Made by a program: the position numbers and the translations under genes. Shown piece after piece: positions 6,577 to 20,221 of a stretch of 64,000 bases of DNA. Under the pieces are notes generated by a model. The model was not told the origin of the DNA. It saw nothing but the letters and a program-made list of their open reading frames with translations, and made no database searches. This stretch comes from Polynucleobacter sp. MWH-Braz-FAM2G (GTDB lineage: Bacteria > Pseudomonadota > Gammaproteobacteria > Burkholderiales > Burkholderiaceae): the NCBI RefSeq assembly GCF_018687635.1, contig NZ_CP061300.1, positions 558,001 to 622,000 of the forward strand, in the 5' to 3' direction. Each line of letters starts with the position of its first letter. The stretch's first letter is position 1.

Positions 6577-8091
6577 ATGGTTGTTCTCGAATCCTACGGC
6601 GTTGCTAGACGCAACCTTCGTATTATTAAAGCCATTGCTATAGCTCTGGCGATTGTTTTGGTTGGTAATGCATTTGTTTCTATTTACCTCCTTCGTAAAA
6701 GTAGTATTGAAGATCGATCAGCGCAATTATCCAATCTCACATCTATATTGGCCGAGCATACAGCTCAAACGATATTTTCAGCTAATACCGCGTTAGAGAG
6801 TATTTTTGATGCTATTGAAATGGCTCATATTCAAACTGAAATGAGCTATCAAAAATTTGCTTCTCAAAAAGATCTTTATGAATTACTAAAAGAAAAAACT
6901 AGTACCAATCCAGTTTTGGATGTCAGCACTTTTGTGGCATCGGATGGCAAGGTATTGAATTTTTCTAGAGAGTATCCTCCTCCCAATATCAATTTGAATG
7001 ATCGCGATTACTTTAAATACCTAAGTACTCATGATGACCCAGCAATTTTTTATAGCGTGCCAGTGCAAAATAAAGGAACTGGAAAATGGGTTTTTTATCT
7101 AGCAAAACGCATTAATGGAAAAAATCATGAATTTTTGGGTGTGGTGCTTGTTGGCGTTTCGGTTGAGATGATTTCTTCGTTTTATAAGGGGGTTAGTTCC
7201 AGCTTGGGCGATGGTACTTCAATTATTTTGTATCGAAGCGACAATACCTTGTTAACTCGTTGGCCTTTAGTTACAAGGCAAATTGGCACAGTCAATTCAT
7301 TGGGTCTGATCGAGCAGTCATTAGCTCATGCAGACCTCAAAAATGGGGTGGTTTTCTCATCCGATCCTGCGTTTACCAACCCTGATGAGAGGGGTGTCAC
7401 CAGAATGCTTTCCTATAAGAAAGTAAATGGCTATCCATTTATTGTTGGGGCAACACTGCCAGAATCAGTTTATTTATCTAATTGGTACAAGAATGCTATC
7501 GGCGTATTGTTGGCTACTACGCTTAGCTTGATTGCTTTAATCATTGGCACATATTATTTGATTAGGTCCTACAGTAAGGGTGCGGAGCATTACTATCGTG
7601 CTAATCACGATATTTTGACTGGACTTCCAAATCGTGGCTTATTTTTTGATCGTTGTAGTCAGGCGATTAATCAGGCTAAACGCAACAACACTAATTTAGC
7701 AATTTTATTTATTGATCTTGATAATCTCAAAACAGTGAATGACTCCTACAGTCATGATGCTGGTGATGCTTTGCTCATTGAGGTTGCCAATAGATTGAAG
7801 TCGAGTGTGCGTATATCCGATACAGTCGGGCGTATTGGTGGTGATGAGTTTGTAGTCTTATTGCTGGGATCGGATACGGATGCCCATGTTTTACAGATAG
7901 CTGAAAATATTCGCCAAGCGCTCATGAAGCCTGTGAAATATGAGGGTGTGGAGCTGGCCTCAAGTGCGAGTATCGGTATTGCTTTGCATCCCACCCATGG
8001 AGAGGATGTAACGGAATTATTGCGTCGAGCTGATGAAGCAATGTATTTGGCTAAAAGTAGCGGTCGAAATAGTATTATTTTCGCCGGCTAA
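6577..8091 (+). CDS. Membrane-anchored diguanylate cyclase with periplasmic Cache-like sensor
   Basis: The 504-residue protein starts with a transmembrane helix (about 17-38). An extracytoplasmic region of about 270 residues follows, resembling dCache_1 sensors (for example the LNDRDYFKYL segment). A second helix lies at about 308-332 and a GGDEF domain runs from 345 to the end. The catalytic GGDEF motif is intact and an allosteric inhibitory site RISD lies five residues before it, so it should make cyclic di-GMP under product inhibition. There is no EAL domain. It stands alone, behind an FNR-like dyad. The ligand of the sensor cannot be told. Confidence 0.9.
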   Translation: MVVLESYGVARRNLRIIKAIAIALAIVLVGNAFVSIYLLRKSSIEDRSAQLSNLTSILAEHTAQTIFSANTALESIFDAIEMAHIQTEMSYQKFASQKDLYELLKEKTSTNPVLDVSTFVASDGKVLNFSREYPPPNINLNDRDYFKYLSTHDDPAIFYSVPVQNKGTGKWVFYLAKRINGKNHEFLGVVLVGVSVEMISSFYKGVSSSLGDGTSIILYRSDNTLLTRWPLVTRQIGTVNSLGLIEQSLAHADLKNGVVFSSDPAFTNPDERGVTRMLSYKKVNGYPFIVGATLPESVYLSNWYKNAIGVLLATTLSLIALIIGTYYLIRSYSKGAEHYYRANHDILTGLPNRGLFFDRCSQAINQAKRNNTNLAILFIDLDNLKTVNDSYSHDAGDALLIEVANRLKSSVRISDTVGRIGGDEFVVLLLGSDTDAHVLQIAENIRQALMKPVKYEGVELASSASIGIALHPTHGEDVTELLRRADEAMYLAKSSGRNSIIFAG

Positions 8092-8123
8092 TCTCACTAT
8101 AAGGGTAATTTCTAGCCCCTTCT

Positions 8124-8951
8124 TTAGCCCAAAATTGTTTTATCTGACTTGATGGCTTGCAGTACAGTAGTCGCAATCTCTTCAATTGATTTGCTGGTTG
8201 TTAGAACCCAAGGAATAGACTGCTTTTTCATCATTGCCGTTGCTTCATTAATTTCATAGCGACAGTTTTCTAGCTTTGCATAATTGCTGCCTGGTCTGCG
8301 TTCATTGCGAATTTCAGAGAGACGCTCAGCATCGATCATGAGGCCAAAAATTTTGTGGCGATAGGGTACCAAGTCTTTTGGCAATTGTCCGCGCTCAAAG
8401 TCTTCCGGAATAAGTGGGTAGTTTGCTGCTTTGAGCCCATATTGCATCGCTAAATAAAGGCTAGTTGGGGTTTTACCAACCCGCGAGATCCCAATCAGAA
8501 TCACATCCGCCTCGGCTAGATTTTGGTTGGACTGACCATCATCATGAGCTAGTGAATAGTTAATTGCCTCAATTCGGTTTTTGTATGCCTCAGTATCCGC
8601 ATTGTGGTGCAGACGGTTCATGGCATGGGTGGATTTCATGCCTAGAGCGGCCTCTAAAGGGGCTACGAAAGTCTGGAACATATCGAGAATGAGGCCATTT
8701 GCCTTACTCACAATTGAATTGAGCTCAGAATTCACTAGGGTCGTAAAAACAATGGGTTGCACACCATATTTGCTGGCCGCCTGATTAATGCTGCTGACGG
8801 CATCATGGGCTTTGTCAACGCTGTCTACAAAAGGCACCCGAATATGCTTAAAAGTAGCCTCAAATTGAGCCAAAATGGATTGGCTGAAGTTCTCGGCGGT
8901 AATGCCGGTACCGTCAGAAACAATAAAAACAATGCGGGTTTCAGTAGACAT
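8124..8951 (-). CDS. ppsR: PEP synthase regulatory protein (bifunctional kinase/pyrophosphorylase, DUF299)
   Basis: The 275-residue protein belongs to the DUF299 family, which reversibly phosphorylates and dephosphorylates PEP synthase near its catalytic His and so turns it off and on. The N-terminus has the family opening VFIVSDGTGITAE and a P-loop-like GISRVGKT at residues 154-161. It is divergent from ppsA (106 bp apart), the enzyme it is expected to control, as in many betaproteobacteria. The ATG at 8951 gives the standard N-terminus. Confidence 0.95.
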   Translation of the reverse strand: MSTETRIVFIVSDGTGITAENFSQSILAQFEATFKHIRVPFVDSVDKAHDAVSSINQAASKYGVQPIVFTTLVNSELNSIVSKANGLILDMFQTFVAPLEAALGMKSTHAMNRLHHNADTEAYKNRIEAINYSLAHDDGQSNQNLAEADVILIGISRVGKTPTSLYLAMQYGLKAANYPLIPEDFERGQLPKDLVPYRHKIFGLMIDAERLSEIRNERRPGSNYAKLENCRYEINEATAMMKKQSIPWVLTTSKSIEEIATTVLQAIKSDKTILG

Positions 8952-9057
8952 GGATTTAGCTTAAAAGTCAGGGTCAGCACTACAATAGAATCATATTAAA
9001 GCATGCCCTATTTTGAGTGGCCGCTAGACCAGTTTCCTTATCTTTTGAGAGTATTTT

Positions 9058-11463
9058 ATGTCCAACCAACAGCAACAAAATAGCAATATGGCAGACGCCT
9101 ACGTTTTACCATTTGAGCAACTTCGTATGACTGATGTTGAATCAGTTGGCGGTAAGAATGCCTCCCTTGGCGAAATGATTTCTCAGCTAGCGTCCACTGG
9201 AGTTCGTGTACCAACTGGTTTTGCTACTACTGCATTAGCCTTCCGTGATTTTCTAAAGCACAACAACCTCACTGAGCGAATTCAACAGCGTTTGGATGGC
9301 TTGAATATTGATGATGTGCGCGCATTGGCCGAGGCTGGTGCGGAGATTCGTAATTGGATAGAAACTGCGCCATTTCAGCCTAGGCTTGAAGAAGAAATTC
9401 GTAAAGCATTTGCGGTTTTGGATGATTCAGGCAAAGGATCTTTTGCGGTCCGTTCCTCGGCTACTGCTGAAGACTTGCCAGACGCTTCCTTTGCTGGTCA
9501 GCAAGAGACTTTTTTGAATGTCGAAGGTATTGAAGATGTTCTCAAGAAAATTCGCGAAGTGTTTGCTTCTTTATATAACGATCGCGCCATCTCCTACCGT
9601 GTTCATAAGGGCTTTGCCCATGCTGAAGTAGCTTTATCTGCTGGTATTCAGCGCATGGTTCGTTCCGATCTTGGCGCTGCAGGCGTGATGTTTACTCTAG
9701 ATACAGAGTCTGGATTTGAGGATGTTGTTTTCATTACATCAAGCTATGGCTTAGGCGAGACAGTTGTTCAAGGCGCCGTGAACCCAGACGAGTTTTATGT
9801 TTTCAAAACAACCTTGGCTCAAGGCAAAAAAGCGATTATTCGTCGCTCTTTAGGTTCCAAGTTAATTCAGATGCAATTTGCGCCGAAAGGTTCTGCTGAA
9901 AAAGTGCAGACCGTGGACGTATCTCCAGAAAAGCGGAATCGTTTCTCGTTGGAAGATGCTGACATTACTGAACTGGCTAAATATGCCATGATCATCGAGA
10001 AGCACTACGGTCGCCCAATGGACATTGAGTGGGGTAAAGACGGTCAAGATGGTCGTATTTATATTCTTCAGGCACGTCCTGAGACTGTAAAGAGTCAAGC
10101 TGCTGGACAAGTAGAGATGCGCTACAAGCTCAAAGGCAGTTCTAAAGTGCTGGCAAAAGGTCGCGCTATTGGTCAAAAGATTGGTGCTGGTCCAGTGCGC
10201 ATCATTCGCGATCCAAGTGAAATGGATCGTGTTCAGCCTGGTGATGTTTTGGTTGCTGATATGACTGATCCAAACTGGGAGCCGGTCATGAAGCGTGCTT
10301 CAGCCATTGTGACGAATCGCGGGGGGCGCACTTGTCACGCAGCGATTATTGCTCGTGAGCTTGGTGTACCTGCAGTGGTTGGTTGTGGCGATGCAACCGA
10401 GAATTTACAAGACGGCATGATGGTGACCGTTTCTTGTGCTGAAGGTGATGAAGGTCATATCTACGATGGATTGATCGAAACAGAAGTGACTGAAGTATCG
10501 CGTGGTGTATTGCCAGATATCCCAGTAAAAATCACCATGAATATCGGTAATCCTCAATTGGCATTTGATTTCTGCCAGATTCCAAATGCTGGCGTTGGCT
10601 TAGCTCGTCTAGAGTTCATTATTAATAACTACATTGGCGTGCACCCTCGCGCAGTATTGGAGTATCCAAACATTGATCCTGACCTCAAGCGTGCAGTAGA
10701 GAGTGTTGCTCGCGGCTACGCTAGCCCACGTCAGTTTTATGAAGATAAGTTGGTTGAGGGCGTTGCTACTATTGCGGCCGCTTTTTATCCAAAGCCTGTC
10801 ATCGTGCGCTTGTCAGACTTTAAGTCTAACGAATATAAGAAGTTGATCGGTGGATCGCGTTATGAGCCAGATGAGGAAAATCCAATGTTGGGATTCCGCG
10901 GTGCCTCACGCTATGTATCGGAAGATTTCGGCGAGGCATTTGCTCTAGAGTGCGCTGCAATGAAGCGTGTACGAGAAGATATGGGCTTAGACAATGTAGA
11001 AATCATGGTTCCATTTGTACGTACGATCAAGCAAGCTGAGCGTGTGATTGGCATGATGGAGAAGTTTGGCCTCAAGCGTGGCGTCAATGGCTTACGTTTG
11101 ATCATGATGTGCGAGATTCCTTCAAATGCCATTTTGGCTGATCAATTCTTAGAGTATTTCGATGGCTTCTCTATCGGCTCTAATGATATGACTCAGTTAA
11201 CTTTAGGTCTTGATCGTGACTCTGGTATGGAGCTATTGGCAATAGACTTCGACGAACGTGATCCATCAGTGGAATTTATGATTGCTCGCTCGATTGATGC
11301 TTGTCGTAAGCAAAATAAATACGTTGGTATTTGTGGTCAAGGACCTTCAGATCATCCAGACTTTGCCCGTTGGTTGGTCGAGAAGGGTATTACCTCTATC
11401 TCATTAAATCCTGATAGCGTAGTGACTACTTGGGAAATGTTGGGTAAGAATCTCAAAGCCTAA
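9058..11463 (+). CDS. ppsA: Phosphoenolpyruvate synthase
   Basis: The 801-residue enzyme converts pyruvate and ATP to PEP, AMP and phosphate, the entry to gluconeogenesis from C3 compounds. Domains in order: an ATP-grasp-like nucleotide-binding domain (about 20-350), the swivelling phosphohistidine domain with GGRTCHAAI (His427 is the phosphorylated residue), and the C-terminal PEP-binding barrel ending with the [11 protein letters not shown] motif (Cys759 as probable acid/base). Length fits E. coli PpsA (792). PpsR is encoded divergently. A strong terminator follows the stop codon. Confidence 0.97.
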
Positions 11464-11480
11464 ACATTCTTTAACGAACA

Positions 11481-11510
11481 AAAAAAGCCTAGATATTTCT
11501 AGGCTTTTTT
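11481..11510 (+). terminator. Rho-independent terminator of ppsA
   Basis: A perfect 13-bp inverted repeat (AAAAAAGCCTAGA / TCTAGGCTTTTTT) with the 4-base loop TATT ends in a T-run, 17 bases after the ppsA stop. The A-run on the left arm also gives a U-tract for the opposite strand, so it may serve the convergent minus-strand operon as well. Confidence 0.9.
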
Positions 11511-11544
11511 GTTTTTACTGAGGGGCGTTGATTATCTTGTAGAC

Positions 11545-12426
11545 CTACTTTTTCTTGGGCAGTGCCTTCTTGACCACCTTTTTCGCTAAGGTAGCTTTTT
11601 TGCTAACTGAAGACTTTACTGCTTTCGCTTTTGACGAAGGGGTATTAATCGGAACGCTACCCATTTTTTTGGCGGGAATGGAGATGTCACTTGATTTTTG
11701 AGTGCCACTCCAGCTTGGTTCGGCAATAGAGTTAAAGGCTTCACGCAGCTTCTCCCCCCATGATTGATGAATCATCGCAAAATAAGGATTTGCATCATCA
11801 AGGGTAACTAGTTTTGTAGCCTTTAAAGAATTTTTTTCATAAACCAGCATATCTAAAGGTAAACCAACCGAGATATTACTTTTTAATGTGGAATCCATCG
11901 AAATTAATGCGCACTTAGTTGCCAGATTAAGTGGAGTGGTGAAGTTAAGCACTCTATCTAAAATTGGCTTGCCGTACTTGGACTCTCCAATTTGGAAATA
12001 GCAAGTTTCAGGGGTGGATTCAATAAAGTTTCCGGCAGAATAAATATTGAATAGACGTGGCTTCTCACCTTTTACTTGACCGCCGAAAATCATATTGCAG
12101 TTAAAGTCGAGTCCGGCCTTCTCTAGGGCTGAATGATCTCGTTCATAAACTTGTTTAATTGCATCGCCTACAACAACCGCAGCTTCATATGAGTTTTTGG
12201 CTGTCCATAAGTTTCTGCCCTTGAGAGATTGACCTTGCAACAGAATTTCTTTAACAGACTGAGTGATGGCAAGATTACCAGCGCTCATGAGGGCAAAGAA
12301 GCGATCCTTATTCTGAAATAAGGTCATTTTTCTAAAAGTGCCAATTTGATCTACACCCGCATTTGTGCGAGTGTCAGACAAGAAAACAAGACCATCTTTA
12401 AGGCAAAGCCCAACACAATACGTCAT
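11545..12426 (-). CDS. Anbu-type proteasome-like peptidase with lysine-rich tail
   Basis: The 293-residue protein resembles the Anbu (ancestral beta-subunit) group of Ntn hydrolases related to HslV and 20S proteasome beta subunits. After removal of Met1 the N-terminus is Thr (MTYCVGLCL), the expected nucleophile, followed by the SDTRTNAG segment seen in this group. The core ends near residue 235. The last 60 residues are an added low-complexity tail rich in Lys, Ala, Ser and Val, resembling histone-H1-like tails. It is the last gene of a four-gene minus-strand operon. AGAGGG lies 9 bases before the ATG. Its substrate is unknown. Confidence 0.85.
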   Translation of the reverse strand: MTYCVGLCLKDGLVFLSDTRTNAGVDQIGTFRKMTLFQNKDRFFALMSAGNLAITQSVKEILLQGQSLKGRNLWTAKNSYEAAVVVGDAIKQVYERDHSALEKAGLDFNCNMIFGGQVKGEKPRLFNIYSAGNFIESTPETCYFQIGESKYGKPILDRVLNFTTPLNLATKCALISMDSTLKSNISVGLPLDMLVYEKNSLKATKLVTLDDANPYFAMIHQSWGEKLREAFNSIAEPSWSGTQKSSDISIPAKKMGSVPINTPSSKAKAVKSSVSKKATLAKKVVKKALPKKK

Positions 12427-12482
12427 ACATTGACCCTCTTAATAATTTCTTGGAATTATCCCTTAATTATCCAAGAGGGTTG

Positions 12483-13280
12483 CTATGGCAACTGTTGAAT
12501 GGAGATATTTGCGGTGAGTTCTTCGCCACCACCGCCTGAGCGAACACCCTTCACGGGCGCCGCTGAGTAATAGTCTCGACCAATGGCTAAACGAATGTGA
12601 CTAGAATCAATTAAGCGGGCATGAGTAATGTCGACACTTGTCCAAATTCCTTTGTCAATATCACTACAAAAATCAATCCAAGCATGGCTAGCAAGGTTAG
12701 GTGATTCTTCAGCAAAAAAATACCCGCTCACATAACGTGCAGGGATTCCTGTTGCCCGACATAAGCTCAGCATGATATGAGCATGATCTTGGCAAACGCC
12801 AGATTTCATGGCGAACGATTGTGCTGCTGTAGTGGCAAAGTTCGTTTTTCCGGGAGAGTAAACAATCAAGCCTTGGATTGCTTCAGCGAGTTTAAGAACC
12901 TGATCAACTGAATTTTTCTTAGGCAGACTATAAGAGAAGTAATCGAGCATCTCTTCTGTTGGCTCAGTCAGATTGGTTTGTTGCAAAAGGTAGTAGGGTG
13001 AAACTGCTTTGGAATCATCAATGAACTCAAAAGCATCTTGTGTATGTACTTCGCCTTCAGCCTCAATCATCATCGAGGTATAAGGGCTTTCTTGCACAAA
13101 CACACTGCATGTATTGCCAAATGTATCTATGGAGCTTGATGATTTTATGGGAGTGCTAATTCTCCACTTGTCGACTTGCTGGCCTGCAGTTGTTGGTGGT
13201 GTTAGGCGCAGTTCTTGGATGGAATACCGTACTGGAGTTTCATAGCGGTATTCAGTGCGGTGGCGAATTTTAAGATGCAT
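12483..13280 (-). CDS. Transglutaminase-like cysteine peptidase
   Basis: The 265-residue protein has the N-terminal beta domain of bacterial transglutaminase-like proteins (HRTEYRYETPVRYS opening) and a papain-like core. The catalytic triad is visible as Cys163 in SGVCQDHAH, His199 in SHAWID and Asp217 in WTSVDITH. Such proteins are usually peptidases or amidases rather than crosslinkers. No signal peptide is seen, so it should act in the cytoplasm. It lies between the alpha-E gene (16 bp upstream) and the Anbu gene (56 bp downstream). Confidence 0.88.
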   Translation of the reverse strand: MHLKIRHRTEYRYETPVRYSIQELRLTPPTTAGQQVDKWRISTPIKSSSSIDTFGNTCSVFVQESPYTSMMIEAEGEVHTQDAFEFIDDSKAVSPYYLLQQTNLTEPTEEMLDYFSYSLPKKNSVDQVLKLAEAIQGLIVYSPGKTNFATTAAQSFAMKSGVCQDHAHIMLSLCRATGIPARYVSGYFFAEESPNLASHAWIDFCSDIDKGIWTSVDITHARLIDSSHIRLAIGRDYYSAAPVKGVRSGGGGEELTANISIQQLP

Positions 13281-13296
13281 ATAGTCTTCGTGATTC

Positions 13297-14274
13297 TTAG
13301 GCGACAGCTAATGGAATGAGGTAAGCGTTACTGAACTCATCAGCTATGTGGTTGATGCGCTCTAGGAAGGTCTTAATAAACTCTTCAAGACCTTGCTCGA
13401 ATACCTCATTAATATCTGAATAATCTAGACTGGCCTTAAGCTTCCCAAGTAAACGCTCGATTTCTTTTGATTGCTGATTCTTCACTTCGGAAATCAGAGG
13501 AATGAGTTCATTGATACAACAGACTAATGAGCGCGGCATTTGCTTGTTGAAGATCAGAAGTTCCGCTACTTGTTTGGGTGTTACCTGATCAGAGTAAATT
13601 TGACGGTAAATCTCAAAGGCGGACACGGAGCGGAGTAAGGCAGCCCAGTGATAGAAATCAAAAAATTCTCCATCTGTACCGTCTTCAGAAGATTTCTGGG
13701 CGCCCAGAACCTTGAGAGCATCTTGATCTTCGTATTTAGTCTCCAAAATGCGGGCAGTATTATCAGCGCGCTCTAGCAAGGTTCCCACATTAATGAAGTA
13801 GAAAGCCTCGTTCTTAAGCATGGTGCCATAGAAGACGCCTCTAAATAAATGACAACGATGCTTGACCCATTCAAGTAAACGACTAGGATCGGCTTGATGT
13901 CTTGCTTCTAGGATGCGTTGCAGCTCTAGCCAAGTGGTATTTTGAGTTTCCCAAACCTCGGAGGTGATCTTCCCGCGAATGACACGAGCATTTTCACGCG
14001 CAGCAAACAAGCAAGAAACAATGCTTGAAGGATTGCTAGTTTCATAGATCATGAAGTCCAAAACGTTTTCACGATTGATCACATCATATTTGCTTAGGAA
14101 AGCATCTTCCAGCTTCGAAATCGTGAGTAGCTTTTTCCAACTTTGCTCTAAAAATTCAGCGGGTTGTGGAAGTAGGGAGGTTTGATGATTTACATCCAAC
14201 ATGCGGGCAGTGTTCTCTGCACGTTCGGTGTAACGGGCCATCCAATAAAGACAATCAGCGGTACGACTTAACAT
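13297..14274 (-). CDS. Alpha-E domain protein (DUF403)
   Basis: The 325-residue, mostly helical protein begins with MLSRTADCLYWMARYTERAENTARML, whose repeated Glu/Arg helix is the mark of the alpha-E family. A second similar segment, LLERADNTARILE, lies near residue 165. No catalytic function is known for the family. Comparative genomics has linked it with circularly permuted ATP-grasp proteins and transglutaminase-like peptidases in predicted peptide-synthesis systems. It is the second gene of the operon, 26 bp after the ATP-grasp gene. Confidence 0.88.
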   Translation of the reverse strand: MLSRTADCLYWMARYTERAENTARMLDVNHQTSLLPQPAEFLEQSWKKLLTISKLEDAFLSKYDVINRENVLDFMIYETSNPSSIVSCLFAARENARVIRGKITSEVWETQNTTWLELQRILEARHQADPSRLLEWVKHRCHLFRGVFYGTMLKNEAFYFINVGTLLERADNTARILETKYEDQDALKVLGAQKSSEDGTDGEFFDFYHWAALLRSVSAFEIYRQIYSDQVTPKQVAELLIFNKQMPRSLVCCINELIPLISEVKNQQSKEIERLLGKLKASLDYSDINEVFEQGLEEFIKTFLERINHIADEFSNAYLIPLAVA

Positions 14275-14300
14275 TTTTTGTGGTTCCTCTTACTCTTCTC

Positions 14301-15713
14301 TCACTCTTCCAGTACCCAGGTGTCTTTAGTTCCACCACCTTGGGAGGAGTTCACTACTAAGGAGCCTTCTTTAAGTGCAACTCTAGTTAGTCCACCAGGC
14401 ACCATCTTGATGGTTTTTCCAGAGAGCACAAATGGTCTTAAGTCGATATGTCTAGGAGCAACACCTGACTCTACAAAGGTAGGGCATGTAGAGAGAGCCA
14501 AAGTGGGTTGAGCAATATATTTATCTGGATTGGCAATGAGATGAGCTCTAAATTCTTCAACCTCTGCTTTGGTAGATGCTGGGCCAACCAGCATGCCATA
14601 GCCACCAGCTCCATGCGTTAACTTGACTACCAATTTATCTAGATTGGCCAATGTGTAAGCTAGGTCATCTGGCTTGCGGCACTGGAATGTAGGAACGTTA
14701 TTCAGAATAGGTTTTTCGCCAAGATAAAACTCGATCATCTCGGGCACATATGGATAGATTGACTTGTCATCGGCAATACCAGTACCAATTGCATTTGCTA
14801 GAGTGACGTTACCAGCGCGATGTGCTGATAAAAGTCCTGCTACACCTAATGTTGAATCTGAGCGGAATGCTAGGGGATCCAAGAAATCATCATCAACACG
14901 GCGATAGATTACGTCTACTCGCTCAGGGCCTTGAGTAGTGCGCATAAAGACTTGCTCATTTTTTACAAACAAGTCCTTGCCTTCGACTAACTCAACTCCC
15001 ATTTGTTGGGCTAAATAGCTATGCTCAAAGTAGGCGGAGTTATACATGCCTGGGGTGAGGACGACTACATTTGGTTTTTTTACATCATCGGGCTTAACCG
15101 ACTTGAGACACTCGAGCAAAAGATCTGGGTAGTGTTCTACAGGAGCGACGCGGTATTTTTGGAAAAGATCCGGGAAGAGTCGCATCATCATCTTACGGTC
15201 TTCAACCATGTAAGACACGCCAGAGGGAACGCGTAGGTTGTCTTCTAATACGTAGAACTCGCCTTCACCTGCGCGAACAATATCAATACCTGCAATCTGT
15301 GCATAAATGTCGCGCGGCACGCTTACATTGCGCATCTCAGGCCGATATTGCGCATTGTTATAAATTTGTTCAGCAGGTACGATTCCCGCTTTAATGATTT
15401 CTTCATCGTGATAGACGTCATAGATGAAGCGGTTAAGTGCTTTTACTCGTTGGCGCAGTCCAGCCTCGAGCTGTTCCCATTCTTTAGCTGTAAATATTCG
15501 GGGTACCTGGTCAAAAGGGATTGTCCTTTCTGACCCTAGGTCGTCTCCGTAGACGGCGAAGGTAATGCCAACCCGTCTAAAGATGAGATCAGCTTCAGCA
15601 CGCTTGAGACCCATTAAGGTGTCGCTTTGCTGCTTTAACCAATTGTGGAAGATTTGGTAGTGTGGACGCGCTTTGCCTGCGGCGTCGAGCATTTCGTCAA
15701 AAGGCAATTTCAT
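14301..15713 (-). CDS. Circularly permuted ATP-grasp type 2 protein
   Basis: The 470-residue protein has the family motif EDNLRVPSGVSYM in its first half and the ATP-grasp-like LTHGAGGYGMLVGP segment near residue 375, consistent with permuted ATP-grasp domains. Members are predicted to form amide bonds between amino acids or to a peptide, but no product has been firmly assigned. It is the first gene of the minus-strand operon with alpha-E, transglutaminase-like and Anbu genes. The 133-bp region upstream carries an NtrC-like dyad. The length matches relatives (about 470-490). Confidence 0.88.
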   Translation of the reverse strand: MKLPFDEMLDAAGKARPHYQIFHNWLKQQSDTLMGLKRAEADLIFRRVGITFAVYGDDLGSERTIPFDQVPRIFTAKEWEQLEAGLRQRVKALNRFIYDVYHDEEIIKAGIVPAEQIYNNAQYRPEMRNVSVPRDIYAQIAGIDIVRAGEGEFYVLEDNLRVPSGVSYMVEDRKMMMRLFPDLFQKYRVAPVEHYPDLLLECLKSVKPDDVKKPNVVVLTPGMYNSAYFEHSYLAQQMGVELVEGKDLFVKNEQVFMRTTQGPERVDVIYRRVDDDFLDPLAFRSDSTLGVAGLLSAHRAGNVTLANAIGTGIADDKSIYPYVPEMIEFYLGEKPILNNVPTFQCRKPDDLAYTLANLDKLVVKLTHGAGGYGMLVGPASTKAEVEEFRAHLIANPDKYIAQPTLALSTCPTFVESGVAPRHIDLRPFVLSGKTIKMVPGGLTRVALKEGSLVVNSSQGGGTKDTWVLEE

Positions 15714-15766
15714 AGTTACAAAACTAATGCCTTTTATAAGTATTAGGTAGGGGATTTTGAAGCGGC

Positions 15767-15795
15767 TTGGTGCTATATTGCACCATTAAAGTGCA
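15767..15795 (-). promoter_or_regulatory. NtrC-like binding dyad upstream of the ATP-grasp/Anbu operon
   Basis: Read on the minus strand, TGCACTTTAATGGTGCA (15795-15779) fits the NtrC enhancer pattern TGCACY-N5-GGTGCA. It shares its GGTGC/GCACC arm with a second dyad, TGGTGC-TATATT-GCACCA (15768-15785). A third GGTGC half-site is at 15842-15846. The dyads lie 66-82 and 55-72 bases before the ATP-grasp start. No exact -24/-12 sigma-54 promoter (GG-N10-GC) was found between them and the gene; the closest has a spacing one base short. The assignment is pattern matching by eye. Confidence 0.5.
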
Positions 15796-15846
15796 TAAAT
15801 ACTAAATTTCTAGCTTTTAGGGCTGTCCAAGCAAGTTTTTTGGTGC

Positions 15847-16299
15847 TTAAGCGTTTAAATCACCTCGAGCGATACGTCCCTTTTGTACTTCCCATTCACG
15901 CTCTTTGGTAGCGGCACGCTTGTCATGCTGCTTTTTGCCTCTAGCAAGCCCGATTTCGCATTTCACATTCCCCTTTGAGAAGTGGAGGTTCAGTGGGACT
16001 AGTGTGTAGCCCTTTTGCTCTACCTTCCCAATGAGTTTGCGGATTTCAATGGCGTTAAGCAGAAGCTTTCGAGTGCGGGTACTGTCGGGAACAATATGAG
16101 TGGAAGCTGATAGCAGGGGGGTAATATGGCAACCGATTAAAAATAGCTCCGCCTTGCGAATGACTACATACGCTTCTTTAATATGCACACGACCTGCTCG
16201 AATGGCTTTTACCTCCCAGCCTTCCAAAACAAGTCCAGCTTCAAAGCGCTCCTCGATAAAATAATCAAAGAAGGCTTTTTTGTTATCGACGATACTCAT
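15847..16299 (-). CDS. smpB: SsrA-binding protein SmpB
   Basis: The 150-residue protein binds tmRNA and brings it to stalled ribosomes for trans-translation. The N-terminus has the family segments [26 protein letters not shown] and the C-terminus is the basic tail rich in Lys and Arg ([16 protein letters not shown]) that enters the mRNA channel. Length is standard. It is divergent from ratA with only 25 bp between the starts. This smpB/ratA arrangement is common in proteobacteria. The tmRNA gene itself is not in this window. Confidence 0.96.
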
Positions 16300-16324
16300 A
16301 TTTATTTAGCTCTCAAGAACGATT

Positions 16325-16756
16325 ATGGCAGACGTCTACAAGACCGTTTTAATTGGCCAGTCAGCCGACCGTATGTATGGCTTGGTTACTGATGTCGCCC
16401 GTTACCCTGAGTTTTTGCCTTGGTGTGGCGGGGTGGAAATTTTTGAGCAAACTGAGACAGTCCTTGATGCCAAAATCAATATTCACTTTAAAGGGATTAC
16501 GCAGTATTTTCACACTCGTAACGTGAATCATCGTCCAGAGACTATTGATATGGTTTTTGTCGATGGTCCTTTTAAGCATTTTTCGGGGCAGTGGAACTTC
16601 ATACCCTTGCGAGAAGACGCCTGTAAGGTGGAGTTCAAGCTTCACTGGGAGTTCAAGAGTGTCATCCTCGATAAGATTATTGGTCCTGTTTTTGGCCATA
16701 TAGCCGGCACCTTTGTGGATTGTTTTGTAAAGCGTGCAGAGGAGTTGTATGGCTGA
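16325..16756 (+). CDS. ratA: RatA / COQ10-type START-domain protein
   Basis: The 143-residue protein belongs to the polyketide-cyclase/START-like group, with the N-terminal YGLVTDVARYPEFLPWCGGVEI motif typical of RatA and mitochondrial COQ10. E. coli RatA was described as a toxin that blocks 70S ribosome association, while the eukaryotic relatives bind ubiquinone, so the true role in this organism may be quinone handling. The last 8 bases overlap the RnfH-family gene, so the two are probably translated together. Confidence 0.9.
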   Translation: MADVYKTVLIGQSADRMYGLVTDVARYPEFLPWCGGVEIFEQTETVLDAKINIHFKGITQYFHTRNVNHRPETIDMVFVDGPFKHFSGQWNFIPLREDACKVEFKLHWEFKSVILDKIIGPVFGHIAGTFVDCFVKRAEELYG

Positions 16757-17099
16757 GCGCACGCTTGATTTGCTGCTCTGTGATGCGCGACAAGGTCAAC
16801 CCGTTTTAAGGCCCTTTCAGCTCATTATTAGTGGTGATGAGACCCCAACGATTGGATTGGCGCTGATCCAAGCTGGGATTGCCGCAAGTCCAGACGACCC
16901 TGCTCTAGCCAGAAAGGGGTGCTATGGAGTCTTTGGCAAGCGTAAGGAGTGGGATAGCCCTATCTATCCTGGAGATCGCTTGGAGCTTTACTCTCCTTTG
17001 TTAATTGACCCCAAGATGGTACGCCGCAAAAAGGCCAATCAGAACCAGGATGCCAAATTCCAGGCTGCCGCAGCTAAAAGAAAGGCTAGGAGGCTATAA
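16749..17099 (+). CDS. rnfH: RnfH/RatB family ubiquitin-like-fold protein
   Basis: The 116-residue protein fits the RnfH (UPF0125) family: the SDDPALARKGCYGVFGK and YPGDRLELYSPLLIDPK segments are characteristic, followed by a basic C-terminal tail. The family has a beta-grasp fold and no settled function; it is usually found beside ratA. The ATG at 16749 gives the family N-terminus MAERTLD and overlaps the ratA end by 8 bp. An in-frame GTG at 16734 is further inside ratA and less likely. Confidence 0.87.
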   Translation: MAERTLDLLLCDARQGQPVLRPFQLIISGDETPTIGLALIQAGIAASPDDPALARKGCYGVFGKRKEWDSPIYPGDRLELYSPLLIDPKMVRRKKANQNQDAKFQAAAAKRKARRL

Positions 17100-17116
17100 T
17101 CTGTTTTTGCGACTAG

Positions 17117-18589
<1,473 letters not shown>

Positions 18590-18613
18590 GACTTAAAAAA
18601 GATTGCTTTATTC

Positions 18614-20221
18614 GTGCACGACAAAATACTGATTCTCGACTTTGGTTCACAGGTAACTCAACTTATTGCTCGGCGCGTACGCGATGGACGGGTGTATTCG
18701 GAGATTCATCCATATGATTGCGATCCCGAATTCATCCGCAAGTTCATTCAAGAGCAAGGTGGCAAAGGCATCATTCTTTCTGGTGGCCCTAGCTCTGTAA
18801 CCGAGGAAGGAAGTCCACGCGCACCCCAAATAGTTTTTGAACTGGGTGTACCAGTGTTGGGGATTTGTTATGGCATGCAAACCATGGCTACCCAATTAGG
18901 TGGTGCGGTTGCATCAGCAGAGTCCTTGGGTAAAGCGCGTGAGTTTGGCTATTCTGAAGTGCGAGCTCATGGTCACACCAATTTACTCAAAGGTATTCAG
19001 GATTTCTCCACTAGTGAGGGGCATGGCATCCTCAAGGTATGGATGAGTCATGGGGATTCAGTCACTACACTGCCACCATCATTTAAGTTGATGGCCTCAA
19101 CTGAGTCTTGTCCGATTGCTGGCATGGCTGATGAAGAGCGCCGTTTTTATGCGTTTCAATTTCATCCAGAAGTTACTCATACTATCCAAGGTACAGCAAT
19201 TATTAATCGTTTTGTACATGAGATTTGCCATTGCAAACCTGATTGGGTAATGGGTGATTACATCGCTGAAGCTGTAGAAAATATTCGCAAGCAAGTAGGT
19301 GATGAAGAGGTTATTTTGGGTCTGTCAGGTGGAGTGGATTCCAGTGTGGCAGCAGCGTTGATTCATCGCGCTATAGGTGATCAACTCACTTGTGTGTTTG
19401 TTGATCACGGACTTCTTCGTTTAAATGAAGGCGACATGGTAATGGAAATGTTTGCGCGCAACCTAGGTGTGAAGGTAATCCGCGTTGACGCTAAAGATAC
19501 CTTTATGGGTGAGTTAGTTGGCGTTACTGATCCAGAAGCAAAACGCAAAATCATTGGTAAAGAATTTGTTGAAATCTTCCAAACAGAATCTGGAAAAATT
19601 AAGAATGCAAAATGGCTTGCACAAGGAACTATCTATCCTGATGTGATCGAGTCCGCTGGTAAAGGCAAGAAGGGTGCGCATACTATTAAGAGTCACCATA
19701 ATGTTGGTGGCTTACCTGAAGATATGCATCTCAAATTACTTGAGCCATTACGTGAATTATTCAAAGATGAAGTGCGTGAACTAGGTGTTGCATTAGGCTT
19801 GCCGCGCGAAATGGTTTACCGTCATCCCTTCCCAGGCCCTGGTCTAGGCGTGCGAATTTTGGGTGAAGTCAAAGCAGAATTTGCAAGCTTATTGCAACGA
19901 GCAGATGCAATATTTATTGAAGAGTTGCGCAATACGATTGATGAAGTTAGTCAAAAATCATGGTATGACCTCACCAGTCAAGCTTTCGCAGTATTCTTAC
20001 CAGTAAAGTCTGTTGGTGTCATGGGCGATGGTAGAACATATGAATATGTTGTTGCGCTAAGAGCAGTGCAAACCCAAGACTTTATGACAGCGCATTGGGC
20101 TCATTTGCCACATGAGTTGCTTGGTAAAGTTTCTAACCGCATCATTAATGAGGTGCGTGGCATCAATCGTGTTGTTTATGACATCAGCGGAAAACCGCCG
20201 GCAACGATCGAGTGGGAATAA
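18614..20221 (+). CDS. guaA: GMP synthase (glutamine-hydrolysing)
   Basis: The 535-residue enzyme aminates XMP to GMP using glutamine and ATP. The N-terminal class I amidotransferase domain shows Cys85 in GICYGMQ and the FHPEV motif for the His/Glu of the triad. The ATP-pyrophosphatase domain starts near residue 210 with [13 protein letters not shown], and the dimerisation domain ends in the usual PPATIEWE. The start is GTG at 18614 ([13 protein letters not shown]). It follows guaB by 24 bp. Confidence 0.98.

Follow-up and report, generated by a model that had tools for sequence, protein, structure and literature searches.

The minus strand of positions 11545 to 15713 in the window (the whole stretch of 64,000 nucleotides of DNA from the freshwater bacterium Polynucleobacter that was analysed) is filled by four intact genes, encoding in order an ATP-grasp protein, an alpha-E protein, a transglutaminase-like protein and the proteasome relative Anbu, and a predicted binding site for the nitrogen regulator NtrC lies directly upstream. 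We propose, with a probability of about one half, that the operon serves under nitrogen limitation and that its ligase forms an amide conjugate, which two hydrolases then cut, most likely in the course of peptide or protein turnover. Control of the operon by nitrogen through NtrC is very probable on the sequence evidence; that its chemistry serves turnover rather than the synthesis of a stable small molecule we hold at slightly less than even odds. These four genes make up the classical Anbu operon, a known set that was reportedly described by Iyer (2009) and by Valas & Bourne (2008). The NtrC box, which the preliminary description passed over, is the most informative feature of the locus, and the control of the operon is what we add to the known gene set. 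A conserved box of the glnA/amtB type points to the physiological state under which to look for the product, and the search would be set in a small genome that has few boxes of this kind.

The four genes and their products

Open reading frame positions and family profiles bore out the order and strand of the genes in the preliminary description, and this order on one strand is that of an Anbu operon. The first gene (14301 to 15713, minus strand) encodes a circularly permuted ATP-grasp protein of 470 amino acids, presumed to be an amide ligase (PF14403, 556.5 bits; PF04174, 517.1 bits). It matches the solved structure 3n6x at E 1e-216; this is its sole solved relative and is labelled a putative glutathionylspermidine synthase. 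The second gene (13297 to 14274, minus strand) encodes an alpha-E protein of 325 amino acids (PF04168, 327.8 bits), for which no solved relative was found by sequence, the best E values in a profile search being 0.069 and 1.3, neither of them significant. Alpha-E is presumed to be the partner of the ATP-grasp from gene order and from a second system of the same genome (L003), in which a transglutaminase-DUF2126 protein and a transglutaminase accompany a single polypeptide that fuses ATP-grasp to alpha-E; it is fairly likely that the two form one ligase unit. The ATP-grasps of the two systems are 33% identical. The second system has paralogous ATP-grasp and alpha-E domains and transglutaminase folds as in the Anbu operon, but it has no adjacent Anbu and contains DUF2126, a domain regarded as a putative amidoligase.

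The third gene (12483 to 13280, minus strand) encodes a transglutaminase-like cysteine hydrolase of 265 amino acids (PF08379, PF01841), with the solved relative 3isr at E 7.9e-14. The triad Cys163/His199/Asp217 that had been read from its sequence proved correct, the cysteine being present in 42 of 43 aligned sequences and the other two residues in all 43. The fourth gene (11545 to 12426, minus strand) encodes a proteasome-like Ntn hydrolase of 293 amino acids, which scored 22.3 bits against PF00227, just below the cut-off of 22.4, and matched five solved Anbu sequences at E 6e-82 to 2e-63, one of them labelled as designed. The threonine next to Met1, also noted earlier, is kept as Thr1 in 51/51 aligned sequences, as are Asp17 and Lys32. 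The C-terminal tail is rich in lysine (15 among the last 55 residues), and in many relatives the tail has a QTLAQ-type motif, whose presence shows no evident correlation with a nearby transglutaminase (28 with both, 10 with the motif only, 13 with the transglutaminase only, 6 with neither). A hairpin over the Anbu ribosome site, which is strong in this genome (predicted at -22.7 kcal/mol by single-sequence folding), was rejected; other Polynucleobacter sequences fold differently and mostly more weakly.

The gaps between the genes are 26, 16 and 56 bases along the operon. Between Anbu and the convergent gene ppsA lies a two-way terminator-like stem-loop (11481 to 11510, both strands) with a 13-pair stem, 4 G-C pairs and a T run on both strands, a consensus match from a scan whose 4 sites were no excess over the mean of 5.1 in shuffled sequence. 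The short gaps and this terminal site favour a single predicted transcript. A caution comes from the sequence GATAAT, which 15 of 29 distinct sequences from Polynucleobacter carry 26 to 42 bases 5' of the Anbu start codon and which makes a separate Anbu transcript possible. When the genes were compared with those of four relatives, dS could be estimated in 12 of 16 cases, with dN/dS of 0.008 to 0.036, and was saturated in the other 4; because these ratios are low, conservation of the operon is not a matter of chance.

A predicted NtrC box in a genome without RpoN

The predicted box, TGCACTTTAATGGTGCA, occupies positions 15779 to 15795 on the minus strand, which is -82 to -66 from the ATP-grasp ATG, and its 17 bases match exactly the pattern TGCACYN5RGTGCA, which we take to be the NtrC box consensus, from enteric glnA. 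It is the sole match in the window at up to one mismatch, but 0.66 would be expected by chance, so that the window match by itself proves little. In the genome as a whole (2.17 Mb), we observed three exact boxes against none for the control, one being that of the Anbu operon and another lying upstream of amtB. At up to one mismatch there were 12 sites against 4 for the control. Five of these precede nitrogen-control genes or the Anbu operon (the operon, amtB, two at glnA-ntrB-ntrC and one at a porin/P-II gene pair, with one-mismatch boxes at the last two loci); the other seven do not precede plain nitrogen genes. A weaker half box, AGCACCAAGCCGCTTCA, lies 21 bases downstream of the first (15758 to 15774, minus strand), and within it GCACCAAGCYGC is nearly invariant in an alignment of 41 distinct upstream sequences; this half box is a putative further site for NtrC. 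Elements of -35 and -10 type could not be placed in the operon upstream region.

NtrC is encoded in this genome (TIGR01818, 653.6 bits, cut-off 558.6), as is NR(II)/NtrB (NF008293, 307.3, cut-off 240). RpoN was not found in the genome, and the 400 bases upstream of the operon contain no sigma-54 element (GG-N10-GC) at up to 2 mismatches. In this NtrC the sigma-54 contact loop is altered to GAFPGA and the Walker-B motif reads LFLGE. Since RpoN is absent, the contact loop is lost and the Walker-B motif has lost its aspartate, NtrC probably activates transcription through sigma-70. The sigma-70-type NtrC of Rhodobacter capsulatus and the NtrC of Caulobacter are described as likewise having nitrogen targets and no working GAFTGA loop (PMC10274813). 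In those proteins, however, the loop is deleted (PMC10274813), whereas here it is substituted, with the Walker-B aspartate also changed in the clade, and Polynucleobacter, unlike either precedent, is a beta-proteobacterium.

Box, loop and gene set among relatives

A uniform scan found the box, at up to 2 mismatches, between -90 and -70 in 51/57 same-genus genomes, with an exact match in 39. A footprint alignment, for which 44 of the 51 loci were parsed, gave 41 distinct Polynucleobacter upstream sequences; the arms are exact in 36 and carry one mismatch in 5, the box always starts 79 to 82 bases 5' of the ATG, and the spacer is variable. Exact boxes in 61 same-genus genomes numbered 147, against 10 for the control pattern. 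Six of the 57 genomes lack the proximal box (G031, G014, G004, G005, G028 and G056), and G031 has a sigma-54 site. The state of the box and the state of the NtrC loop go together. Where the loop is altered (24 genomes), the proximal box is present in 23 and the sigma-54 element in none; where the loop reads GAFTGA (13 genomes), the corresponding counts are 1 and 9. An exception, G062, has the proximal box despite an intact loop and RpoN. Genomes with the loop kept, the loop changed, the Walker-B motif changed and RpoN absent form a natural series for the study of how a sigma-54 regulon may pass to sigma-70.

Among wider relatives, at up to 2 mismatches, a sigma-54 -24/-12 site occurs in 44/80 upstream regions against 27/1507 control windows, and an NtrC box in 42/80 against 68/1507, leaving 36 and 38 regions, respectively, without them. 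In six of the 22 family loci that begin with the ATP-grasp gene, a search allowing 3 mismatches still gave no sigma-54 site, and one of those six genomes, G117, has no RpoN. Solitary Anbu genes have neither type of site in 9/9 cases.

The four families are less constant as a set than the preliminary description, which presented them as one unit, had implied; the families, order and active sites that it gave were supported. Of 80 named relatives, 79 have alpha-E after the ATP-grasp, 31 a transglutaminase, 30 Anbu and 24 all four families, although 27 of these loci are shorter than 15.3 kb, so that contig ends may hide genes. Of 40 family loci, 30 combine all four; two of these have broken genes, and in one some 3 kb separate ATP-grasp from alpha-E. 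Anbu is solitary in 9 of the 40, and three-gene versions without the transglutaminase occur. All 39 Anbu-bearing genomes that were examined, from 74 found, retain an ATP-grasp, in the same stretch of 6.6 to 11 kb in 30 and elsewhere in 9, with broken copies in two; those with a solitary Anbu have it elsewhere in 9/9. An ATP-grasp match is absent from 20/81 same-genus genomes (15/67 among those of good quality), and the system is therefore dispensable.

Published observations and a proposed function

Several reports bear on the control of these families. In Pseudomonas putida grown on nitrate versus ammonium, log2 changes of 3.99 for PP_2688 and 4.44 for PP_2685 are given (PMC8050072). Under nitrogen limitation PP_2686-2688 rose 11- to 37-fold in three strains, and an rpoN mutant kept the induction (14.2-, 16.0- and 19.6-fold), so that induction in this species has no simple dependence on sigma-54; the Anbu gene, PP_2685, rose only 1.12-fold in the wild type (PMC7801951), and a value of 11.1 is given for it elsewhere (PMC3325844). 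In a Burkholderia cenocepacia ntrC mutant, I35_5080 to 5083 changed by -8.2, -9.4, -9.4 and -6.0 (PMC5491218). At that locus NtrC governs, as we propose here, genes for an ATP-grasp (DUF404/407), an alpha-E protein (DUF403) and a transglutaminase, but the cluster encodes a large transglutaminase protein, is sigma-54-dependent, and has no Anbu named in it (PMC5491218); the gene order of Caballeronia and Burkholderia loci suggests orthology between its ATP-grasp and the Polynucleobacter one. Unchanged expression under various conditions is also cited (PMC5666114).

On the biochemical side, the Yersinia bercovieri ATP-grasp released phosphate from ATP, and the in vitro work detected neither peptidase nor amidase activity for Anbu, nor any specific binding of the four proteins to one another (PMC6376114); the failed Anbu assays described used standard proteasome substrates and mostly Anbu by itself (PMC6376114, PMC5666114). 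The Anbu operons of Pseudomonas, Yersinia and other Proteobacteria share the four families, their order and the active-site residues with ours (PMC5666114, PMC6376114). The operon here differs in its proximal NtrC box, in lying in a genome without sigma-54 and in the lysine-rich end of Anbu. As had been stated earlier, no product or client for the gene set is named in the parts of the literature searched, nor a client for Anbu, an old proteasome relative, in those operons (PMC5666114, PMC6376114).

In the mechanism that we favour, phosphorylated NtrC would bind the box and half box about 45 to 80 bases upstream of the ATP-grasp start and activate sigma-70 polymerase. Judging from the families, the ATP-grasp, with alpha-E as partner or subunit, would activate a carboxylate as an acyl phosphate and join it to an amine, and the transglutaminase-like cysteine hydrolase and the Anbu threonine hydrolase would then cleave the conjugate itself or the protein bearing it, which would allow the recycling of peptides or amino acids while nitrogen is scarce. 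If a tag is used, it could be a tail of Anbu or a free peptide. The scheme would resemble mycobacterial pupylation in function, with unrelated ligases. The Pup-proteasome likewise pairs a ligase with a proteasome-type hydrolase and matters under nitrogen limitation, but its ligase is unrelated and it relies on a protein tag (Pup) and an unfoldase (PMC8223512); the four-gene unit contains none of the three.

The same families could instead build a short peptide or an amino-acid or polyamine conjugate, with the hydrolases trimming or recycling it and nitrogen limitation setting only the timing, a reading that we regard as possible though rather doubtful. The suggestion in the preliminary description, that a small peptide or tag is made and trimmed, may likewise be correct. 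It fits the chemistry of the ATP-grasp family and the glutathionylspermidine synthase label of 3n6x; furthermore, 43 of the 80 named loci have an ATP-grasp without its own transglutaminase or Anbu in the available stretch, although many of these adjoin the second system and some are truncated where a contig ends, and there is no obvious gene for a tag protein among the annotated neighbours (reading frames of at least 120 amino acids, so that shorter ones are missed). Against it, Anbu assembles into a complex with many sites and is bound by proteasome inhibitors; the authors of that study took this to mean protein degradation and considered the peptide-synthesis proposal less likely (PMC5666114). 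The retention of the ATP-grasp in 39/39 Anbu genomes ties Anbu to the ligase and fits both readings.

It is improbable that Anbu simply degrades peptides or unfolded proteins during starvation, with the other three genes separate and partly co-controlled. The three-gene versions, the solitary Anbu genes without a box, the GATAAT sequence as a possible promoter of Anbu's own, and the pull-downs that gave no contacts among the four proteins (PMC6376114) would all agree with such an arrangement; the joint occurrence of the four families (24/80 named and 30/40 family loci) and the ligase retained elsewhere in solitary-Anbu genomes argue against it. A regulator other than NtrC at the palindrome, the nitrogen link being a coincidence, would account for the seven genomic matches beside genes without a plain nitrogen role, but it is very unlikely, given that the same motif precedes glnA-ntrB-ntrC, amtB and the P-II gene, and that the same families belong to the B. 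cenocepacia NtrC regulon (PMC5491218) and are nitrogen-responsive in P. putida (PMC8050072, PMC7801951).

A more inclusive version of our favoured reading, which we consider unlikely as a whole, joins a nitrogen-starvation tag-and-recycle system to a stepwise conversion of NtrC into a sigma-70 activator and a relocation of the operon box. The GAFTGA loop would have been lost first, and the Walker-B aspartate and RpoN later; the box would have shifted to a constant position some 80 bases upstream of the gene, so that the operon stayed within the core nitrogen response beside glnA, amtB and P-II. The system would then be functionally equivalent to pupylation, with an ATP-grasp/alpha-E pair as its ligase, and the Anbu tails, lysine-rich here and of QTLAQ type in many relatives, might be partner docking sites or substrates of the ligase or transglutaminase.

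A role in phage defence was rejected, none of the four proteins matching PADLOC models, and positions 8000 to 20000 contained no structured RNA at Rfam gathering scores. Among 75 named loci, the only extra partner that recurred in many was a ComEC-type protein (28 loci, in most of them upstream and on the same strand); other clusters occurred in at most 7 loci each or appeared to be shadow reading frames of known genes. Annotation of seven representatives, the ComEC-type protein included, gave no Pfam match for a partner found in 7 loci, and the lesser partners comprised a sodium:solute symporter and a sensor kinase (5 loci each) and a GntR-aminotransferase, a thiolase and CobD/CbiB (4 each).

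Operon genes and the predicted NtrC box

The source genome, a single contig of 2.17 Mb, probably belongs to Polynucleobacter, as most of the protein relatives with a name come from that genus. The operon lies on the minus strand, and its four intact ORFs have the place and order assigned to them in the preliminary description: ATP-grasp (14301–15713), alpha-E (13297–14274), transglutaminase-like (12483–13280) and Anbu (11545–12426). The intergenic gaps are 26, 16 and 56 bases, respectively, and a two-way terminator-like site is positioned after Anbu. The Cys163/His199/Asp217 triad claimed for the transglutaminase-like protein is indeed intact, with C163, H199 and D217 kept in 42, 43 and 43 of 43 aligned sequences; likewise, the Thr beside Met1 of Anbu (T1) is present, together with D17 and K32, in 51/51 aligned sequences. 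Comparison with four relatives indicated purifying selection on all four genes (dN/dS 0.008–0.036 in the 12 of 16 gene comparisons with unsaturated dS). Among 29 distinct Polynucleobacter sequences, 15 carry a GATAAT 26–42 bases upstream of the Anbu ATG (segment 12427–12482), possibly a -10 element from which Anbu is transcribed separately.

These four genes form the classical Anbu operon, which is already known. The available text of PMC6376114 describes the same four genes, with no activity found for Anbu, no specific contacts among the proteins and phosphate release by the ATP-grasp protein, and that of PMC5666114 presents Anbu structure and inhibitor binding and reports, as cited work, induction in nitrogen-limited P. 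putida. In the literature searched on the Anbu operon, neither a product nor a client was found named, as had been stated earlier. What is new here is a probable nitrogen control through an NtrC that, judged from sequence, looks free of sigma-54.

A predicted NtrC box, TGCACTTTAATGGTGCA, was located by sequence match at 15779–15795, upstream of ATP-grasp. In the window alone a match at ≤1 mismatch is unsurprising (0.66 expected by chance), so that the case for the box rests on genome and genus evidence. TGCACYN5RGTGCA is matched exactly at 3 sites of the source genome (control, 0) and with ≤1 mismatch at 12 (control, 4). Five of the 12 precede the Anbu operon, amtB, glnA-ntrB-ntrC (two) and a porin/P-II pair, whose P-II protein scores slightly below both NCBIfam cut-offs; the remaining 7 are associated with genes of no plain nitrogen role. 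Across Polynucleobacter, the box arms and their distance to the ATG are conserved and the spacer varies: among 41 distinct upstream sequences, which come from 44 of 51 loci, the arms are exact in 36 and carry one mismatch in 5, and all boxes start at -79 to -82. By a simple equal-base estimate, ≤1 arm mismatch in the scanned interval would arise by chance in ~0.15% of sequences. A uniform scan of 57 same-genus genomes at ≤2 mismatches detected the proximal box (-90 to -70 before the ATP-grasp ATG) in 51, of which 39 have an exact copy, and not in G031, G014, G004, G005, G028 or G056.

Two further boxes of the source genome may be mentioned. An exact box at L005:1501–1517 (G000:C1:1623674–1623690) lies upstream of no ORF of ≥80 aa in the stretch read; it could serve an NtrC-controlled small RNA or short gene. 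The gene for a TorF-type putative porin (L025:1285–2202) sits between a one-mismatch box and the P-II gene, and thus the porin may be part of the nitrogen response.

NtrC loop, RpoN and promoter type

RpoN (sigma-54) was found in 41 of the 62 genomes searched, including 13 of 31 from the same genus, and was not found by this search in the source genome. The source-genome NtrC (L008:1084–2535, corresponding to G000:C1:759531–760979), which scores above the equivalog cut-off, has GAFPGA in place of the sigma-54 loop GAFTGA, and LFLGE in place of LFLDE in Walker B. In our first sample (28 genomes with an NtrC match out of 30 searched), GAFPGA occurred in 7/7 same-genus genomes without RpoN; the 13 with RpoN comprised 8 GAFPGA, 1 GAFQGA and 4 GAFTGA, and GAFTGA was read in 8/8 genomes of other genera. 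A second set of 16 genomes gave 14 NtrC matches; here the loop alone was read, irrespective of RpoN, which added 3 GAFPGA, 3 AQFGNT, 4 GAFANA, 1 GAVPNA and 3 GAFTGA. Gly replaces the Walker-B aspartate in 11 of 41 NtrC proteins read (G016 left out), each with GAFPGA. Given GAFQGA, AQFGNT, GAFANA and GAVPNA in other members of the genus, loss of the sigma-54 loop seems to have occurred repeatedly. Most simply, the loop was lost first and RpoN afterwards; RpoN may also have been regained by transfer.

We observed that operon promoter type and NtrC loop state change together. Because the genomes are mutually related, the following counts do not represent independent events. One group comprises 24 same-genus genomes with an altered loop and the operon promoter read; the proximal box is present in 23 of them and a sigma-54 element (≤2 mismatches, 400 bases) in none. 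The other comprises 13 GAFTGA genomes with the operon (5 of the same genus, 8 of other genera); here the proximal box is confined to G062, and 9 genomes carry a sigma-54 element at ≤2 mismatches, which in 3 of the 9 (G005, G028 and G004) lies 314 bases upstream and is not trusted. At the locus of G014, the lone altered-loop genome without the box, transglutaminase and Anbu were not found. In a set of 80 loci, seven of them Polynucleobacter or near-Polynucleobacter, sigma-54 elements lie upstream of 44 and NtrC boxes upstream of 42, with both present in 23; among 1507 control windows, the corresponding numbers are 27 for sigma-54 elements and 68 for NtrC boxes. Nine solitary Anbu genes had neither element.

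Published expression data and a possible role

The available portions of several reports bear on this control. In P. putida, nitrate versus ammonium gave log2 changes of 4.44 for PP_2685 and 3.99 for PP_2688 (PMC8050072). Under nitrogen limitation, PP_2686–2688 rose 12.6-, 11.0- and 14.7-fold in the wild type and 14.2-, 16.0- and 19.6-fold in an rpoN mutant, with PP_2685 at only 1.12-fold in the wild type (PMC7801951); elsewhere, 11.1-fold is given for PP2685 (PMC3325844). Expression was 6- to 9.4-fold lower in a B. cenocepacia ntrC mutant (PMC5491218). Induction that survives in the P. putida rpoN mutant is hard to reconcile with a simple sigma-54 model in that organism, and it leaves the sigma-70 reading of the source genome untouched. 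In Rhodobacter and Caulobacter, an NtrC without GAFTGA is described as acting at sigma-70 promoters (PMC10274813).

Judging from their families, the ATP-grasp protein with alpha-E would carry out amide ligation through an acyl-phosphate, and the Cys and Thr enzymes would hydrolyse. The type of control suggests a task during nitrogen scarcity, most simply peptide or protein turnover. Mycobacterial pupylation is reported to play a role under nitrogen limitation (PMC8223512, in the text available); its likeness to the Anbu operon would be a functional parallel, not an evolutionary one.

Gene-set association and Anbu tails

That ATP-grasp and alpha-E act as one unit is best indicated by their fusion (871 aa) in a second, paralogous system of the source genome, L003, which also encodes a transglutaminase-DUF2126 protein (1133 aa) and a transglutaminase (306 aa). 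Among 80 named relatives, alpha-E follows ATP-grasp in 79, transglutaminase in at least 31 and Anbu in at least 30, and the four-gene set is complete in at least 24, these counts being lower bounds because 27 loci end early. In many loci without the complete set the two systems adjoin. The link from Anbu to ATP-grasp is strict: all 39 Anbu-bearing genomes examined, out of 74 found, have ATP-grasp (30 in the same stretch, 9 elsewhere), split into frames in G101 and G164.

Several variants were also seen. The operon is split into several frames in G016 (L175) and G164 (L123), is present as two near-identical copies in G062 (L157/L158), and is without the transglutaminase gene in four same-genus genomes (G004, G005, G028 and G056; L167–L170). 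About 53 bases before the first start codon of the second system lies GCGCACTATATTTGTGCGC (L003:3218–3236), whose arms are perfectly complementary and which is near the NtrC consensus, yet outside it.

We compared Anbu C-terminal tails from the source genome (gene at 11545–12426) and from loci L089–L128, L157–L176 and L217–L296. Of 19 Polynucleobacter tails read, 16 had a Lys fraction of 0.19–0.25, compared with 0–0.06 in 31/31 tails from outside Polynucleobacter. Five short Anbu proteins of 237–246 aa (L244, L256, L261, L269 and L278) are almost tail-less, and a short motif of the QTLAQ/QSLAE type occurs within the tail of 38 of 57 non-Polynucleobacter Anbu proteins.
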